Below, piece after piece: positions 15,809 through 49,111 of a stretch of DNA of 64,000 nt (its first letter is position 1; the number at the start of each line of letters is the position of its first letter). A model generated the notes under the pieces. It did not search any database. It saw only the letters and a list, made by a program, of their open reading frames with translations, and was not told the origin of the DNA. Source of the stretch: an uncultured Alistipes sp. (GTDB lineage Bacteria; Bacteroidota; Bacteroidia; Bacteroidales; Rikenellaceae); contig CALUKI010000018.1 of NCBI GenBank assembly GCA_944321175.1, positions 1-64,000 on the forward strand, written 5' to 3'. Both the position numbers and the translations under genes were made by a program.

Positions 15809-15818
15809 ACACTTGCCG

Positions 15819-15892
15819 TAGCGAGAGAGAGACTTGAACTCTCGACCTCATGATTATGAATCATGCGCTCTAACCAGCTGAGCTATCTCGCC
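15819..15892 (-). tRNA. tRNA-Met (CAT), elongator-type
   Basis: Acceptor GGCGAGA/TCTCGCT with G-U at position 1-72, anticodon arm CATGA-TTCATAA-TCATG (anticodon CAT), T arm GAGAG-TTCAAGT-CTCTC, discriminator A, no encoded CCA. It lacks the three-GC-pair anticodon stem of initiators. A lysidine-modified tRNA-Ile2 cannot be formally excluded. Confidence 0.88.
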
Positions 15893-29273: not shown

Positions 29274-29410
29274 CATCCGATCAACACGGAGACGCGAAAC
29301 CTTCGGCAAACGACGTCTGCCATCGGGAAATCCGACGGCTCATCTTTTCTGCCCCCCCCCGCTTTTGTCTGCCGGCACCTGTTTCGGCCCGTTCTCTGCA
29401 ACTATTTCAT

Positions 29411-29451
29411 CAAAGCGACGTCCCGCCAAATTCCGGCGGGACGTCGCTTTG
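29411..29451. terminator. 17-bp perfect hairpin, original terminator of the BASS operon
   Basis: CAAAGCGACGTCCCGCC (29411-29427) and its exact complement (29435-29451) around a 7-nt loop. It lies 25 bp beyond the displaced BASS stop codon and also downstream of the convergent DUF486 gene. Confidence 0.75.
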
Positions 29452-29475
29452 CCGAATCCGTTTCCACGCTATACG

Positions 29476-29558
29476 CTATTTTCGAACGGAAACTTTTTCC
29501 CGCTCCTTCTCCTTGTCCTTGCGGTAGATCTGGTAGGAGTTCACGAAGTTCTGCCAGA
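29476..29558 (-). pseudogene. displaced original 3' end of the BASS transporter gene
   Basis: Read on the minus strand from the 20-bp repeat, this segment encodes WQNFVNSYQIYRKDKEKERE followed by KVSVRK and a TAG stop. The intact gene at 35025-35945 ends WQNFVNSYQIYKKDRETAKNQI. The first eleven residues are identical and the tail is diverged. The fragment has no start codon or upstream coding sequence and is GC-rich like the host. It is best explained as the original gene end, cut off by insertion of the island. Confidence 0.85.
29539..29558. repeat. left 20-bp direct repeat (attachment-site core)
   Basis: GTTCACGAAGTTCTGCCAGA, identical to 35076-35095. It encodes W-Q-N-F-V-N of the BASS protein on the minus strand. 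Confidence 0.85.
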
Positions 29559-29565
29559 TATTATT

Positions 29566-29601
29566 TACTTGCGTTTATATTCATCTGAATATTAGCAAGT
29601 A
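29566..29601. repeat. inverted repeat 8 bp inside the left island end
   Basis: TACTTGC (29566-29572) pairs with GCAAGTA (29595-29601), with an inner ATATTC/GAATAT stem and ATCT loop. It may be a recombinase or accessory-factor site, or the terminator of the helicase-HNH operon. Confidence 0.5.
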
Positions 29602-29699
29602 GAATAATTATTTCCTTGTGTCGGGTAACATAATTGCAACAAAATTACGGATAAAATTGAGCCGTCCGAAATATTTTAATTCTTGTCAATCTTTTTATT

Positions 29700-30833
29700 C
29701 TATTTGCCAATACACTCGTCGAATAACTCCTCCAAATACTCTTTGGGCATAAAACCGGTTTCTACCCTTTTATGTACGAATAAATTATCTTCGTACACAA
29801 CCTCTCCGAGCTGATACTCCAATTCATTTTCACTAAACTCATCCTTATTGAGATTTGCTACGGGAACAGGCATAGAATCTCCACCACTATAACTTCGCCA
29901 CACATATGCGGATTTAGTCATTACATATAGAGAATTTCGATCTTCCGAAAATCCATACTTGACAACCACATACTCCCGGTCTCCATTATCGTTTCGCCAA
30001 TAGACGGCATTTTCGGTTAGATTAGCGGCATAAGCAGTTAAAGGATCACCACTATATTCCTGCGGAGTACATGGGTATTCATTGGGCTTATCATTATAAA
30101 AATAGATTTCTTGGGCCGCTCCGGGTGTTAACGAGAGCATAACATTGGGTTTTCTTTGTCCCGGCTCAACGGGACGTTCATATGCTCGAGGCGGAATTTG
30201 GCCCCACCCGTTTAAGGAATCGGATTGCAACTTGTCAATTTCATCTATATTCGATGACTGACCGTCATTTTGCGAAATTGATTGCCGACCATATACCCAT
30301 TCGCCCAAAGCTCCTCCGGATGCTTGCTTGTCGCTTTCTGCCCATGCCAATAATCGCTCCTTGCTAACTTGAGCTTCTGCATCCGTAACGGTTCTCATCC
30401 AACTGAAATCGGGGGTAACATCGCTTTCTCTCAACAAAGATGGATTGGCCAAAAACGCTTCGATACTACCGCAACGCATAATGATACGTTTTCGTGTAAT
30501 CGGGTTATCGAGTGCGTTCTCCAATCGGGTAACCCATCGAAGATTGTCCGCGCGATTGTTGCGGCGATTCGTATCTATATGATCGACGACATGTTCTTTC
30601 GTCGGTTTCGGACCATGAAAGGCAGTAGCCACAATAATATGAACTCGAACAGAGGCTATTTCCATGTATCCATGTTTATCATTGGCCTTACCGAAAGTCC
30701 AGAAATTATCATATTTACGAGGCCGCTTACCATCACGCGGATGGCGAAAAACAGCTCCATTATCTCGAACAGAGTATTTTTCATTTTTATAAATACACTC
30801 TATTTCGTGCTTAAAATCATTAACATCAATCAT
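29700..30833 (-). CDS. HNH endonuclease-domain protein with long C-terminal extension
   Basis: A 377-residue protein. Residues about 12-60 resemble a NUMOD-like DNA-contact region (EKYSVRDNGAVFRH), followed by an HNH_3-type core: VHIIVATAFHG (65-73), HVVDHIDTNRRNNRADNLRW (81-100). The presumptive metal ligands are the HVVDHID histidines and the asparagines of RRNNRADN. The remaining 270 residues show no family I recognise (LSLTPGAAQEIYFYN, YVVVKYGFSEDRNSLYV). It starts 35 bp after the helicase stop, so the two are probably co-transcribed. Codon use is AT-rich. A homing endonuclease is possible, but pairing with a helicase favours a nuclease subunit of a defence module. Confidence 0.72.
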   Translation of the reverse strand: MIDVNDFKHEIECIYKNEKYSVRDNGAVFRHPRDGKRPRKYDNFWTFGKANDKHGYMEIASVRVHIIVATAFHGPKPTKEHVVDHIDTNRRNNRADNLRWVTRLENALDNPITRKRIIMRCGSIEAFLANPSLLRESDVTPDFSWMRTVTDAEAQVSKERLLAWAESDKQASGGALGEWVYGRQSISQNDGQSSNIDEIDKLQSDSLNGWGQIPPRAYERPVEPGQRKPNVMLSLTPGAAQEIYFYNDKPNEYPCTPQEYSGDPLTAYAANLTENAVYWRNDNGDREYVVVKYGFSEDRNSLYVMTKSAYVWRSYSGGDSMPVPVANLNKDEFSENELEYQLGEVVYEDNLFVHKRVETGFMPKEYLEELFDECIGK

Positions 30834-30868
30834 ATAAAACGACTAAATAATTTCAATACTCGAAAACT

Positions 30869-33865
30869 CTATGCACTTGCGATGACTCCTAACTTAATCA
30901 TCCTTGTTTCCCACAAATATGCTTCAGTGAGACTGAGTAATTTCAATTGTTCTATCGAAGCTACTTCTTTCGACAATCCGGGTTGAACTATATGAACTAT
31001 ATATTCGGTTTCATACAAACTTTTTACTTTTTCCCTGATTATTGAAAGTTGTTCTTCTGTTCCTAATTCGTATCTATTTTTAGGCCCTGAAGCCCCACGT
31101 CTTAACATTCGACCAATAATATGTTCTGGTCTGGTATGAAGCCAACTTACACACTTTTGCGCTTGCCCATTAACAGCATATAAATCGTTGATTCGAGCCC
31201 CGGGACGGTCCTCTTGAGAAAATTTCAAGTGAAACAATTCCACTTTGACTTTTTTATTAACATCATCAACTTCGATCGCGATAACATCCGCGATTTCCCC
31301 TGCATTGTCATCATCGAATATTATGTCGAAATTTTGTTCTTTAAGTTTCTGTATCACATGATATTGAATGCTCGTACTATCTTTCTCATTACCTTGTGAT
31401 TCATTTTTAATATTTACACCTGCCCAATCCCAAACTTGAATCTTCTCTCGATCAAATAATACATCCTCATTTCTATATTCGGCCAAATATTGGCCTTGTA
31501 AAGTAGTTCCATCAACAAACCGGACAGTAGGGAAATAGCGGTCTTTACACAGGAATTCAGATAATGATAAGGTACTACGCCCTATGTTAATGCAAAGAGG
31601 TATTGAAACATTATCTATTAATACATTTCCATTTATAATTTTATAGGTATAATGGGATTCAAAAGCATCGCTTCTTACGATAAAATTTAACACTCCATCC
31701 ACCTGATTATCTGAAAGTAAAATATCTACAGAAATCAAAGGTTTCATATTTTCTTCATTTGTTCCTATGTAGATATTTTTTTCAAGTTCACCGATTATAT
31801 TTTCTGGCCATTCGATGGAAATTGCACGTTCGTTTGGTATAGTATCAACAGAAACATATTTCGTTGCATGTTGCATGACCATTTCATCATTAATAGATGA
31901 ATCTAAAATTTTCGCACCGATTGAATCGCACCATTTCGTAAATTCATTTATATTGTTTATTCTTCGAGACCACACTCGTCCTCTATATGAACATCCAACT
32001 GATGTTTCCTCGCCATTTTCATAGCCAGTAACAAATATGTTCGACTTAATTTTATTTTTCTGTTGAGCTTCAGTTAATACCTTTTCAATATCTGAACCTG
32101 CATGCATTGTAAAACTTCGGAGGGTATTTAAAGCATCTTTTAAGCCTACATTGGTTACTTTTATGCGGTACATATGCCCCAAACACCTAAATATACTCGT
32201 TGCATCCACTATTTTTGCTGTTTCGTCTGTAACCGCTTTGGCTAAATCTTCGAAAAGAGAACCATTATCCGAACAATTAATAAATAATAACTTTTGTTGG
32301 ACATTACGATATATGATATAGAGAGTCCAGTGCATTTCGAATAAGTCTTCAATCTTTCCGAAAGCAACCTTATCTTTTTTACCTGCAACTATTACAATTG
32401 TGTTTCCCTGCTGATTGGTGTCATAATATACTTTTTCATATTGCTCTATAGCTGTTAGCCCTTTTACATATCTTTCAGGATGCCATTCTTGTTCATTAAT
32501 TTTATAAACGACAGCACTCAGAGCGGGTAAAAGGTTTTGAATTGGTAATTCTTCTGGAAACTTCTCAAATCCTTGTATAAATTCTCGCAATGAAATTTGA
32601 TTATCAATTCTTCCTTCACTTAAAAAAGGTAATAACCGATTCCAATCAGCATCGGATGCATATAGGTGCTCGATTTCTTTTTGTGCATCAATATCTGCTA
32701 TATTCACAATTATTGAAGCGCACCCTAAAGAATCATCCATACTTGTTCTTGTAAAACGTCCAATTAATTGCAAAGTTGTAGGCAAGCTTTTTTTGATATC
32801 ATGAAAAGCTGCAATTTTCAGTTTCGGCATATCGAAGCCTTCCCCAAACATATCAACGCATACAATAATCTTACATTCACCGGCAATTATTTTTGCCTTT
32901 ATCTCTGATATTGACCTTGTAGATAAATGTGAGTGTATAGACAATGGATTATATTCCGGGAACGAATCAGCATAGATTTTTTGAATGATCTCGGCTCTTG
33001 CAATACTATTCACTCTTGCCATGAGGACATGGTCATATCCATTTTCGATATCCAATCTTAATTGTTCGATAGCCTTGTTTGCTATTATTTGATCGGATTG
33101 CTTGGAATTCCACTCAATAATTGGAATATAATTTATTGGCTTGAAATATCCTTCATCTTGCGCTTTTCGTAAAGGATAATTGAATATTATTTTACCTCCT
33201 ATAGGTTTGTCGTCATTTCGAAATGGCGTTGCAGTAAACTGGAGAATCTTCGTATTTTTAAAAGAATCTTTTACAATCGACCATGATCTTGCTGGGGTGT
33301 GATGTGCTTCATCCACGAACAAATGAGAACATTGGTTTGCGATTGCCACTTGTATAGGTTTAGACAAACTACCAATGATGCTAATTGTCGTAACCACAAC
33401 ATTGCATTGCTCCATAAAAGCAATGGCTTCTTCTGCAGAACATGGACGATGCGACATTACTCCAACAATCGGTTTCAAGACTGTTTCTTTGATTAAGCCG
33501 AATTGAGAGTTGCTCAATAATCCCAATGATGCTACTTTATCAGATATTTGTGTTCTTAACGCATCCGTCGGAACAATAATCATTGTCTTGCTACATGTCG
33601 CTGCTATCAACAACGATAGCATAACTTCTGTTTTACCTGTTCCGGTAGGCATCACGACAGTCGCTGGATCTGACGAAATTTCCCAATGTGACAGAACTGC
33701 ATAAACAGCTCCGATTTGAGGAGACCTCAAGCCTTTGATATTTCTGGTTATATCCTCTTTTTTTAAGAATATTCCGTCTTTCCACGTATCCAAAATCTGG
33801 TTTGTTGTTCTTCCTCCAACCACCGGATTACTATCTAATATTCTACCAATAGCCGCCATAATCAT
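30869..33865 (-). CDS. SF2 (DEAH) helicase with possible C-terminal nuclease-like domain
   Basis: A 998-residue ResIII/type-I-restriction-like SF2 helicase. The Q-motif region is LRSPQIGAVYAV (46-57), Walker A MPTGTGKTE (72-80), DEAH in LFVDEAHHT (185-188), motif III FTATPFRND (210-218), motif V VDMFGEGFDMPKL (337-349), and motif VI QLIGRFTRTS (366-375). Residues 400-850 have no named family. Near 858-883, IADVIAIEVDD ... VELFHLKFS gives D860, E876 and K881, reminiscent of a PD-(D/E)XK core but with non-canonical spacing. Start MIMAAIG at 33865 (or the ATG at 33859). Strongly AT-rich. DNA restriction or anti-phage function is inference from architecture and island context. Confidence 0.82.
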   Translation of the reverse strand: MIMAAIGRILDSNPVVGGRTTNQILDTWKDGIFLKKEDITRNIKGLRSPQIGAVYAVLSHWEISSDPATVVMPTGTGKTEVMLSLLIAATCSKTMIIVPTDALRTQISDKVASLGLLSNSQFGLIKETVLKPIVGVMSHRPCSAEEAIAFMEQCNVVVTTISIIGSLSKPIQVAIANQCSHLFVDEAHHTPARSWSIVKDSFKNTKILQFTATPFRNDDKPIGGKIIFNYPLRKAQDEGYFKPINYIPIIEWNSKQSDQIIANKAIEQLRLDIENGYDHVLMARVNSIARAEIIQKIYADSFPEYNPLSIHSHLSTRSISEIKAKIIAGECKIIVCVDMFGEGFDMPKLKIAAFHDIKKSLPTTLQLIGRFTRTSMDDSLGCASIIVNIADIDAQKEIEHLYASDADWNRLLPFLSEGRIDNQISLREFIQGFEKFPEELPIQNLLPALSAVVYKINEQEWHPERYVKGLTAIEQYEKVYYDTNQQGNTIVIVAGKKDKVAFGKIEDLFEMHWTLYIIYRNVQQKLLFINCSDNGSLFEDLAKAVTDETAKIVDATSIFRCLGHMYRIKVTNVGLKDALNTLRSFTMHAGSDIEKVLTEAQQKNKIKSNIFVTGYENGEETSVGCSYRGRVWSRRINNINEFTKWCDSIGAKILDSSINDEMVMQHATKYVSVDTIPNERAISIEWPENIIGELEKNIYIGTNEENMKPLISVDILLSDNQVDGVLNFIVRSDAFESHYTYKIINGNVLIDNVSIPLCINIGRSTLSLSEFLCKDRYFPTVRFVDGTTLQGQYLAEYRNEDVLFDREKIQVWDWAGVNIKNESQGNEKDSTSIQYHVIQKLKEQNFDIIFDDDNAGEIADVIAIEVDDVNKKVKVELFHLKFSQEDRPGARINDLYAVNGQAQKCVSWLHTRPEHIIGRMLRRGASGPKNRYELGTEEQLSIIREKVKSLYETEYIVHIVQPGLSKEVASIEQLKLLSLTEAYLWETRMIKLGVIASA

Positions 33866-33933
33866 AAAGTTTTAATGTATGATCTTCCCTATTATTATAT
33901 GTAGACTTCATTACCAGCCAAAGTAACGGCTAT

Positions 33934-33941
33934 CAAAATTA
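33934..33941 (-). promoter_or_regulatory. candidate -7 box TAATTTTG for the helicase-HNH operon
   Basis: Minus-strand TAATTTTG lies 68 bp upstream of the helicase start, in an AT-rich stretch where chance matches are likely. Confidence 0.4.
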
Positions 33942-34015
33942 ATGATTTTGAATCAAGTAACCATAAAAATACAACACAAACTCGCATATTTTACTAAATT
34001 TCAAGAATAATTAGC

Positions 34016-34023
34016 TACATTTG
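34016..34023 (+). promoter_or_regulatory. -7 box TACATTTG upstream of structured element
   Basis: TAnnTTTG on the plus strand, about 60 bp before the nested stem-loop at 34084-34201. It would place that element in the transcript leading to the small lipoprotein gene. Confidence 0.5.
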
Positions 34024-34083
34024 TAATTGGATTGAGTTCGCTCGTTCCAGACATATTGAGAAGAAGCGTTATGCTTATCTTGT

Positions 34084-34201
34084 AACTTGAAAACGTAGGA
34101 AATTTTCAATTAGATGCAAGGATGGCATAGTGGTTCTCACGCTTTAGCGTGGGCTGCTATCACTACATCTGCATCTATGGGTTTCCTACGACCTTCAAGT
34201 T
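34084..34201 (+). ncRNA. candidate structured RNA / nested inverted-repeat element
   Basis: Four nested stems: AACTTGA...CGTAGGAAA (34084-34102) with TTTCCTACG...TCAAGTT (34182-34201); TAGATGCA (34111-34118) with TGCATCTA (34170-34177); TAGTG (34128-34132) with CACTA (34161-34165); and a terminal CACGC-TTTA-GCGTG hairpin (34136-34153). Total 118 nt with no ORF. It lies between a promoter-like box and the lipoprotein ATG at 34280. It could be a leader RNA, a stand-alone RNA, or a MITE/REP-like DNA element. Orientation is set by the promoter and is provisional. Confidence 0.5.
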
Positions 34202-34279
34202 AAGACGTGGCATTGCAGTTCCACACTTCGTGTTACTATTAATATCCTTGTGGCAGCTGGAGGATGAAAATATTTCATT

Positions 34280-34504
34280 ATGAAAAGGTTGCTTCTCTTT
34301 CTGACGATTATCGCTATGCTAACCTCTTGTAGCATCGTAAAAAGAACTTATGTTTATGATTATAGAGAGCAAATCGAATTGATCAAAACAAACTTTCCAG
34401 AGATATACGACCTATATCGTCGTGGTGAAGTCATTATTGATAACGTATATACCTACGAAAAAGATGGAATAGAACGGGTTCACATAAGTTACCATTACAG
34501 GTAA
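34280..34504 (+). CDS. small lipoprotein of unknown function
   Basis: A 74-residue protein with a lipoprotein signal: MKRLLLFLTIIAMLTSCSIV, lipobox LTSC with Cys17. The mature part (VKRTYVYDYREQIELIKTNF...) is about 58 residues, rich in Tyr and charged residues, ending HISYHYR. No family is recognised. It follows the nested stem-loop element by about 80 bp and precedes a broken second lipoprotein frame. Short lipoproteins of this kind occur in Bacteroidota accessory regions; a role in surface exclusion or immunity would be speculation. Confidence 0.6.
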   Translation: MKRLLLFLTIIAMLTSCSIVKRTYVYDYREQIELIKTNFPEIYDLYRRGEVIIDNVYTYEKDGIERVHISYHYR

Positions 34505-34518
34505 ATCTATACGTCTCT

Positions 34519-34696
34519 ATGAAACAAATTTTCTTAATTTTATGTATTTTACAGTTGTGAGCAGACAAAAAGACAAAGAGGGGCAGAGGTTGCCAAATCA
34601 AGAATGATGAAACGTCTCTATAATGCGGATAGTGATGAACCCATTGAAGCACAAATCGACTGCGCATATACTTCTTATACAGATATAGAAATATGA
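34519..34696 (+). pseudogene. frameshifted small lipoprotein
   Basis: An ATG at 34519 opens a signal-peptide-like MKQIFLILCILQ and then hits a stop. Dropping one base near 34555 continues as CEQTKRQRGAEVAKSRMMKR and on to YTSYTDIEI with a stop at 34694-34696 (46 codons from the Cys). This looks like a lipoprotein gene broken by a single-base shift. The lipobox would be imperfect (ILQC), so chance is not excluded. Confidence 0.4.
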
Positions 34697-34792
34697 TTAG
34701 AGCCGCCTATGATTTAATCAGTTATAAATATGAGTGAGAAAAAACGGCTACAACGTTAATACAATTCCACGAAATCATAGAAGTCATCTGAA

Positions 34793-35011
34793 ATGATTAG
34801 AAAGGGTGGAGCAGTTGTGTCAAAGATAGACTATTTGTTTCTGCTTCGTCATACCGTCACCGTTTATTATTTCAACGGCAAATATGGCGAATTTGTTATG
34901 TTACCGCAGTATTATCGAGCAACAAGACAGGAAGTAATATCGGGCAATTATTGGCTTGATCAAGAAAATCGCATAAATAATCCAGAAACTGAAATCAAAT
35001 ATAAATCATAG
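34793..35011 (+). CDS. small hypothetical protein at the island right end
   Basis: A 72-residue frame, MIRKGGAVVSKIDYLFLLRH then TVTVYYFNGKYGEFVMLPQY and YWLDQENRINNPETEIKYKS. It has aromatic-rich beta-strand character, no signal peptide and no recognised family. Its last codons lie in the left arm of the 17-bp inverted repeat at 34992-35037. Convergent with the BASS gene. Could be a remnant of a longer protein; the coding status is uncertain. Confidence 0.45.
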   Translation: MIRKGGAVVSKIDYLFLLRHTVTVYYFNGKYGEFVMLPQYYRATRQEVISGNYWLDQENRINNPETEIKYKS

Positions 35012-35037
35012 CATTTTCAATGATTTATATTTGATTT
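34992..35037. terminator. bidirectional terminator overlapping two convergent gene ends
   Basis: A 17-bp perfect inverted repeat (34992-35008 with 35021-35037, 12-nt loop), A-run before and T-run after, so it works on both strands. It includes the last codons of the small plus-strand ORF and of the island-supplied BASS tail. Confidence 0.75.
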
Positions 35038-35945
35038 TTCGCCGTTTCTCTGTCCTTTTTGTAGATTTGATAGCTGTTCACGAAGTTCTGCCAGACGATG
35101 TAAGCCGTCGGCGCTACCGACGAGATCGGATCCATAAAGGCCTGCGACATCCACACCGCAAGCACCGTATTCTTCTGGCCGAGCGACTGACCGCCCGCCA
35201 CCGCATCGCCATAGCGGCGGCCGATCCAGCGTCCGGCACCGAACTGGAGCAGGCAGATCACCAGCGCCGCGACCGCCAAGGCCGTCTCCACCCTGCCGTC
35301 GGCCTCCTGATGGTCCAAAATGAAGGTCGTGGTGCGACCGATGATCACAGCCAACGATACCAGCCACATGTAGAAGGAGATCTGGCTGTGTTCAGCCACC
35401 CAGCCGCTGACGCGCGGCAGAGCGGCGCGGCACGCCTGCGCCGCAGCGAACGGCAGAATCAACAGCGGGGCTACGCGAGCAAGGATCAGGCCCAACGAAC
35501 ATTCGCCATTGCCGACCAGCGACAAAAAAACCGGCGCGACCAGCGCAATGACCATGTTGCAAAGCAGACTGAAGGTCGCCATCGTCACCACATCGGCGCC
35601 CAGCATGCCTCCGATCACCACCGCCGCCATCGCAATCGGCGTCAATACGCAGATCATGCCGCCCTGCGCCACCACCTCGTTGAACGGATGCAGAATCCCG
35701 TAAACCGCGATGCTGAAGAGCAGTTGCGCCGCCAACAGCCAGAAATGGATCGGCTGCAGCCGCATGCGGCGCACATCGACACGGCAAAAGGTGAAAAAGA
35801 GCATGAAAAAGATGAGCGACGGTGTGATCATTCCGCCGCTCCATGTTTCCAGAGCCGCTATAGGCCGGCAGAACATCGCTCCGACGACCATTCCCAACGG
35901 CATTGAGACGGTCTTGAAGTGATGCATGTGAAGATGAAGGGACAT
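35025..35945 (-). CDS. bile acid:sodium symporter (BASS/SBF)-family transporter
   Basis: A 306-residue inner-membrane protein with 8-10 hydrophobic segments. The pattern PSLIFFMLFFTFCRVD, LTPIAMAAVVIGGMLGADVVT, and near the end GGQSLGQKNTVLAVWMSQAFMDPISSVAP matches the BASS superfamily, where the two crossing helices bind Na+. Substrate is unknown; most Bacteroidota members are not shown to carry bile acids. Fourth gene of the SSS-amidase-YqeY-BASS operon (3-bp gap after YqeY). The last 16 codons after the repeat come from the inserted island, and the original tail is at 29476-29558. The product should still be functional because the change is confined to the hydrophilic C-terminus. Confidence 0.85.
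   Translation of the reverse strand: MSLHLHMHHFKTVSMPLGMVVGAMFCRPIAALETWSGGMITPSLIFFMLFFTFCRVDVRRMRLQPIHFWLLAAQLLFSIAVYGILHPFNEVVAQGGMICVLTPIAMAAVVIGGMLGADVVTMATFSLLCNMVIALVAPVFLSLVGNGECSLGLILARVAPLLILPFAAAQACRAALPRVSGWVAEHSQISFYMWLVSLAVIIGRTTTFILDHQEADGRVETALAVAALVICLLQFGAGRWIGRRYGDAVAGGQSLGQKNTVLAVWMSQAFMDPISSVAPTAYIVWQNFVNSYQIYKKDRETAKNQI
35076..35095. repeat. right 20-bp direct repeat (attachment-site core)
   Basis: Identical to 29539-29558 and part of the BASS coding sequence. Bases leftward (toward 35025) are AT-rich island sequence, bases rightward are GC-rich host sequence. Confidence 0.85.
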
Positions 35946-49031: not shown

Positions 49032-49038
49032 ACTTCGG

Positions 49039-49111
49039 TGAACCCGCTGGGGCTCGAACCCAGGACCCCAACATTAAAAGTGTTGTGCTCTACCTGCTGA
49101 GCTACGGATTC
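49039..49111 (-). tRNA. tRNA-Lys (TTT)
   Basis: Acceptor GAATCCG/CGGGTTC with one G-U pair, anticodon loop CTTTTAA (anticodon TTT), T arm CTGGG-TTCGAGC-CCCAG, discriminator A, CCA not encoded (CCG follows). 73 nt. Confidence 0.94.

Follow-up and report, generated by a model that had tools for sequence, protein, structure and literature searches.

Introduction

CIMEs are elements that lack integration and transfer genes and retain attL and attR (PMC5704250). The sites used by IMEs at the 3' ends of genes include tRNA genes and the housekeeping genes guaA, rpsI, rplL, trmE and yicC, and no transporter gene is found among them (PMC5704250). Here, we analyzed a stretch of 64,000 nucleotides from an uncultured Alistipes sp. 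(contig CALUKI010000018.1, referred to as the window), in which an AT-rich island is located at the 3' end of a gene for a BASS/SBF-type transporter. The island was compared with genomes of the same genus and with complete relatives of the element.

Results

The 3' end of the BASS gene is present twice

The transporter gene (306 aa; 35025-35945, minus strand; identified as an ORF and by its homologues) is host-encoded as far as a 20-bp core, whereas its tail is encoded by the island. This core (GTTCACGAAGTTCTGCCAGA), which codes for the IVWQNFVN region of the protein, is present in two identical copies on the minus strand, at 35076-35095 (attL) and at 29539-29558 (attR). It is the longest exact repeat in the 8-kb region, as compared to at most 15 bp in 200 base shuffles, and is embedded in a 54-bp repeat of 80% identity, the copies being 5,537 bp apart. 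The GC content of the insert is 35-43%, that of its surroundings about 57%. The last 16 codons of the living gene (SYQIYKKDRETAKNQI) and its stop codon (35025-35075, minus strand) are supplied by the island, and the same type of tail is found behind BASS in about 12 congeners. The original 3' end (..WQNFVNSYQIYRKDKEKEREKVSVRK, stop) is stranded at 29476-29558 (minus strand), where the reading frame continues to SYQIYRKDKEKEREKVSVRK and its stop codon, next to the original terminator-like hairpin with 22-nt arms that are 91% complementary (29406-29456). A sequence-only reading of this DNA had claimed the perfect repeat, the supply of 16 codons and a stop by the island, and an original tail stranded 5.5 kb away beside the operon's terminator. 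All three are borne out, the repeat being longer than in any shuffled control, the new tail being part of ORF 35025-35945 and the stranded tail and hairpin both being native in the sister genome described below.

The window protein alone gave no Pfam match at E<=1. However, SBF (Sodium Bile acid symporter family) is matched by eight of the 15 homologues in the alignment, with a best E of 1.4e-7, and the label "BASS-type" is therefore sound.

An AT-rich stem-loop with 18-bp arms in the window (34992-35037) extends over the new stop codon and is kept across the element family. Its pairing holds in 85% of the cells when in register, compared to at most 47% when slid, and its covariation was not clearly above that of shuffled controls. 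In one congener (G140, L038) BASS carries the element-type tail and the element is gone, the next ORF being DHFR/RibD-like as called by eye. Thus, a swapped tail can persist once the element is lost.

A sister genome carries the empty site

The BASS gene is present in 166 of the 180 genomes of the genus searched. The closest one, 92% identical, belongs to the genome of a sister species (G160) and is uninterrupted, without an insert. Its DNA aligns with the window from position 35045 onward on one side, and the same bases align on the other side with 29507-29558 at 96% identity, followed by the same hairpin. When the flanks of the window were joined at the core, they gave a single unbroken alignment of 1,250 bp to G160 (87.3% identity), with the stranded tail as the end of the joined gene. 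Because the joined flanks form one alignment and the gene regains this tail, the comparison shows the insertion. The integration at the 3' end of a protein gene with restoration of the frame that had been claimed from the sequence is thus supported, and the alignment to an island-free relative proposed at the time reveals an intact gene to which the tail and terminator stranded in the window are native. That 29476-29558 might be part of another gene, the finding set out beforehand as a refutation, was checked against the same genome and did not hold; the segment is the native BASS tail.

Complete elements at the same site

The sequence downstream of many BASS genes was collected in the order of BASS similarity, and the BASS tail was readable in 74 loci. 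A profile of the left terminus matches 15 of these, two of them weakly (G155, G013); owing to the similarity-ordered sampling this count is no estimate of prevalence. Both repeats are present in four loci, namely in the window (5,537 bp) and in G004 (1,720 bp), G145 (12,132 bp) and G016 (11,408 bp), and all four of these two-ended insertions share the terminal regions. In the window, the left terminus was identified by terminus comparison and profile (34886-35074, minus strand), and the right terminus by a profile match across its full 133 bp, core included (29540-29672, minus strand).

The elements in G145 and G016 are complete, 11-12 kb long and each situated between two BASS 3' ends. Their gene order is tyrosine integrase, an ORF of about 294 aa, HTH_17, AAA_25, primase (Toprim and CHC2 domains), Mob_Pre relaxase, cargo, HNH_3, right terminus and BASS 3' end. 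The integrase lies directly behind BASS and matches PF00589 (Phage_integrase), PF13102 and PF17293, comprising SAM-like and arm-binding domains. No T4SS-like gene was recognised among the listed ORFs. Two further genomes (G010, G019) have the same gene set, reaching the contig ends. Judged by gene content, the complete relatives have the anatomy predicted for an IME. An arm-type repeat, TTTTGTTRCTATTTTGTTAC, occurs in direct orientation at both ends and is near perfect in G016 (22/22), G145 (18/19) and Parabacteroides massiliensis (24/25); in the window copy, whose left terminus is degraded in this respect, and in G004 it was not above chance.

The related element of P. massiliensis (L159, 9760-20478; 82% Int) has no BASS gene upstream. 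Its left end is preceded by a right-end-like sequence and a HipA-like ORF, an arrangement that suggests tandem accretion or a secondary site.

Integrase and site are linked

Seven integrases are 71-100% identical to the reference. Five of them lie behind a BASS 3' end (in Alistipes, Bacteroides neonati and a Bacteroidaceae MAG), that of P. massiliensis is preceded by no more than a copy of the att segment, and in the last case the gene begins at the edge of its contig. Among the relatives examined that are at most 54% identical to the reference, none was found behind a BASS 3' end. In the integrase tree, the integrases of 71-100% identity plus one 54% relative are supported as a group at 100/99, the BASS-linked sequences alone as a clade at 45/55 only. 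By its genomic positions, this integrase group is shown to be specific for the BASS 3' end.

Loss of the integrase

Starting from the BASS gene, the window island matches the complete elements in the tail codons, the stem-loop, the terminus and the integrase start codon (34850-34852, minus strand). The similarity to complete integrases stops ten codons past the start, leaving a remnant that reads MTKQKQIVYL and a stop (34820-34852, minus strand), as aligned to MAKQKQTVKL.. in complete members. No remains of the ORF of about 294 aa, the HTH, AAA and primase genes or the relaxase gene were detected in the window island, in which the HNH gene is the next feature of element type. The absence of an integrase from the island, which had been stated from the sequence alone, stands as far as an integrase ORF is concerned, the first ten codons being preserved in the complement of 34820-34852. 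An ORF on the plus strand (34793-35011) is very likely no gene; it runs antisense over the left terminus and the integrase start, and these termini account for its matches.

Most of the islands of the BASS-site family that were found have a broken integrase or none. The scars comprise residues 35-54 in G004, 361-398 in G142, 1-182 followed by relaxase residues in G143, and a broken gene in G018. In G162, G015 and G140 the tail and the left end alone are retained. The search for a cognate helper integrase in the window's genome gave a best match of 43%, a fragment at a contig edge, and this assembly of 36 contigs could miss one. Mob_Pre had no match in the window's genome; the same search was positive in five relatives and in none of 14 named control genomes. 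The viral collection contained no match to the right-end pattern TAAATAATATGTGGCAGAAC, and neither an excised circle nor a recombination product was seen. An Int-bearing record labelled "Bacteriophage sp." (MT838894.1, L217) was considered as a circular form and rejected. It is bacterial chromosomal DNA with BASS, the left end of the element and a broken integrase, and its BASS tail has an early stop.

Cargo of the islands

The right-end gene of the window island encodes an HNH endonuclease of 377 aa (29700-30833, minus strand) that matches HNH_3 as well as the PADLOC homing endonuclease model. It is 90% (G016) and 87% (G145) identical to the proteins at the same right-end position of the complete elements.

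By domain match, the adjacent gene (30869-33865, minus strand) encodes an SF2 (ResIII/DEAD) helicase of 998 aa, which among the 180 genomes searched is confined to that of the window. Full-length relatives with 27-41% identity are encoded on plasmids of many phyla, with hosts including Klebsiella, Rhizobium and Acinetobacter, and are labelled "DEAD/DEAH box helicase family protein"; none was found in viral contigs. Four aligned sequences keep the Walker and DEAH motifs and a C-terminal block, FDIIFDDDxxGEIAD...HxK, in which D..DDD..GE.AD...HxK is invariant. From these residues we infer that the block may be a PD-(D/E)XK-like nuclease, and the protein is probably a single-gene defence protein, for which it is a candidate.

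On the plus strand, ORF and domain searches predict a lipoprotein of 74 aa (34280-34504). Folding and conservation point to a structured leader RNA upstream of it (34070-34275, plus strand). The leader (about 160 nt) folds with a z of -5.3 relative to shuffles. It had no Rfam match, and Rfam on the whole island gave only two snoRNA matches at chance level. Within the genus it was found in 43 of 180 genomes, at dispersed places and often in multiple copies. Of 12 loci inspected, nearly all have it directly 5' of a signal-peptide/lipobox gene, the gene families varying. In an alignment of 11 copies, both partners have changed with pairing preserved in 14 of 49 pairs, and exceptions are few. The leader looks like an undescribed cis-regulatory RNA.

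Other islands carry an AbiLi/AbiLii-like pair together with a DUF2971 protein (G145), an ApeA-like protein (G004) and an OLD/AbiL-like ATPase (G016). By family resemblance, predicted defence cargo is a common theme of the islands.

Discussion

The window island retains attL and attR, that is, the 20-bp core and both conserved termini, as well as only ten codons of int, and no relaxase or primase was matched within it, as in a CIME. G145 and G016 have their own site-specific integrase, as IMEs do, and the window island has none. Its site is in a protein gene and not at the 3' end of a tRNA gene as in NBUs, the nearest tRNA genes being at 15818-15892 and 49037-49111.

We are confident that the window island is an immobilised, integrase-less CIME derived from an IME family of Bacteroidales, and that it arose as follows. 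The tyrosine integrase of the family would recombine attP with attB in the WQN-F/I-V/I-N codons near the BASS 3' end. With attP bringing its own BASS 3' end, tail and stop would be swapped and the old tail and terminator moved to the far side, as the comparison with the sister genome shows. In the window, the part that starts at codon 11 of int and extends through the relaxase would then have been deleted or replaced by the helicase and small lipoprotein genes, the termini and HNH being kept, which is evident from the alignment to complete members. With int through the relaxase lost and the termini and HNH left, the island would stay put as a fixed cargo island, probably retained for the helicase as a predicted defence gene. 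The polarity of the loss and the immobility of the window island are what we infer from these comparisons.

Alternatively, the integrase-less islands could be passengers, moved in trans when integrases from complete elements act on their retained ends. Complete elements with matching ends do exist in the genus, and the islands of the window (5.5 kb) and G004 (1.7 kb) have no int, keep both att sites and the right terminus and differ in their defence-like cargo. Integrase-less defence mini-islands would then be a satellite population inserted, excised and swapped in trans, with the BASS tail as a docking port at which phage-defence genes are exchanged, a picture that we regard as improbable, like the trans-mobilisation that it builds on. 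The leftovers of int differ from island to island, as expected of separate deletions in place, the arm-type repeat has been eroded or lost in part both in the window and in G004, each integrase-less island is known from one species only, and the window's genome has no close Int. Given their different breakpoints and eroded arms, the islands are more likely to reflect several losses in place than a single trans-mobilised form.

A smaller chance still is given to homing, in which cleavage of the BASS 3' end by the HNH endonuclease is followed by repair that copies in the island. An HNH_3 protein with the PADLOC homing endonuclease match does adjoin the insertion edge in three islands. However, the 1.7-kb island of G004 has no HNH match, relatives of the HNH protein elsewhere are not tied to BASS, and homing into an intact gene is not expected to leave a diverged, element-specific tail plus a second copy of the old tail. 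The HNH protein was therefore rejected as the leading mover, since it is missing from the 1.7-kb island and it is the integrase that is linked to the site. The similarity of the two copies across 54 bp could also mean that ordinary recombination duplicated the BASS 3' end in tandem and that foreign DNA was gathered later, but this is hardly credible, as the tail in use is the element type of many species, the stranded tail is that of the sister's native gene, and the conserved termini and int remnants would be left unexplained. The sister genome and the complete elements contradict it. The immobilised derivative of a BASS-site IME is our preferred reading.

The conserved 3' end of the gene for a BASS-type transporter is an integration site of mobile elements in gut Bacteroidales for which no report was found in the available literature. 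It is occupied in Alistipes and Bacteroidaceae, and in Parabacteroides a related element lies elsewhere. Since the cargo varies by island and is mostly defence-like, the locus is a predictable place to seek new defence genes. The mostly broken or absent integrases provide a natural series on how often mobile defence islands become locked in place, and the same series bears on whether the swapped C-terminal tail and terminator of the transporter matter to the host. The helicase (30869-33865), whose relatives bear generic names only, is a candidate single-gene defence system, and the leader RNA (34070-34275) is worth a separate study.

The kind of element is already known (CIME/IME), and the BASS attachment site is without a report found in the open-access literature. 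The sequence-only reading had held that no att site in a BASS gene is described; this agrees with the table of a 2017 review (PMC5704250) and with the open-access literature, the limited coverage of which makes the agreement no proof. CIMEs (PMC5704250) are alike in their lost integration and transfer genes, whereas the window copy is derived from an IME, has no tandem partner and is known from sequence. In the shutdown of recombination in pandemic Vibrio cholerae (PMC7721734), site-specific recombination is likewise reported to be lost and the cargo trait kept. The trait described there is interbacterial (T6SS), while the BASS islands have genes resembling phage defence and have lost the integrase repeatedly, in different species, at a single att site. 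The Bacteroidales IMEs NBU1, NBU2, Tn4555 and MTnPi share with the BASS-site family an arm-binding tyrosine integrase, an accessory DNA-binding protein, a primase, a relaxase, variable cargo and a size of 11-12 kb (PMC5704250, PMC4755523), and also a 3'-end target with restoration of the gene (PMC5704250; for MTnPi, PMC4755523). They differ in the target, which is a tRNA gene for NBU1, NBU2 and MTnPi4, one of two preferred sites for Tn4555 and a transporter gene for the BASS family, and in the relaxase, which is Mob_Pre (Pfam) in the BASS-site family and MobP in NBU1, NBU2 and Tn4555 (PMC5704250). Unlike all of these, the window copy is devoid of int and mob. Compared to the IMEs at guaA, rpsI, rplL, trmE and yicC, the BASS target is absent from that table, and the new tail visibly differs from the native sequence.
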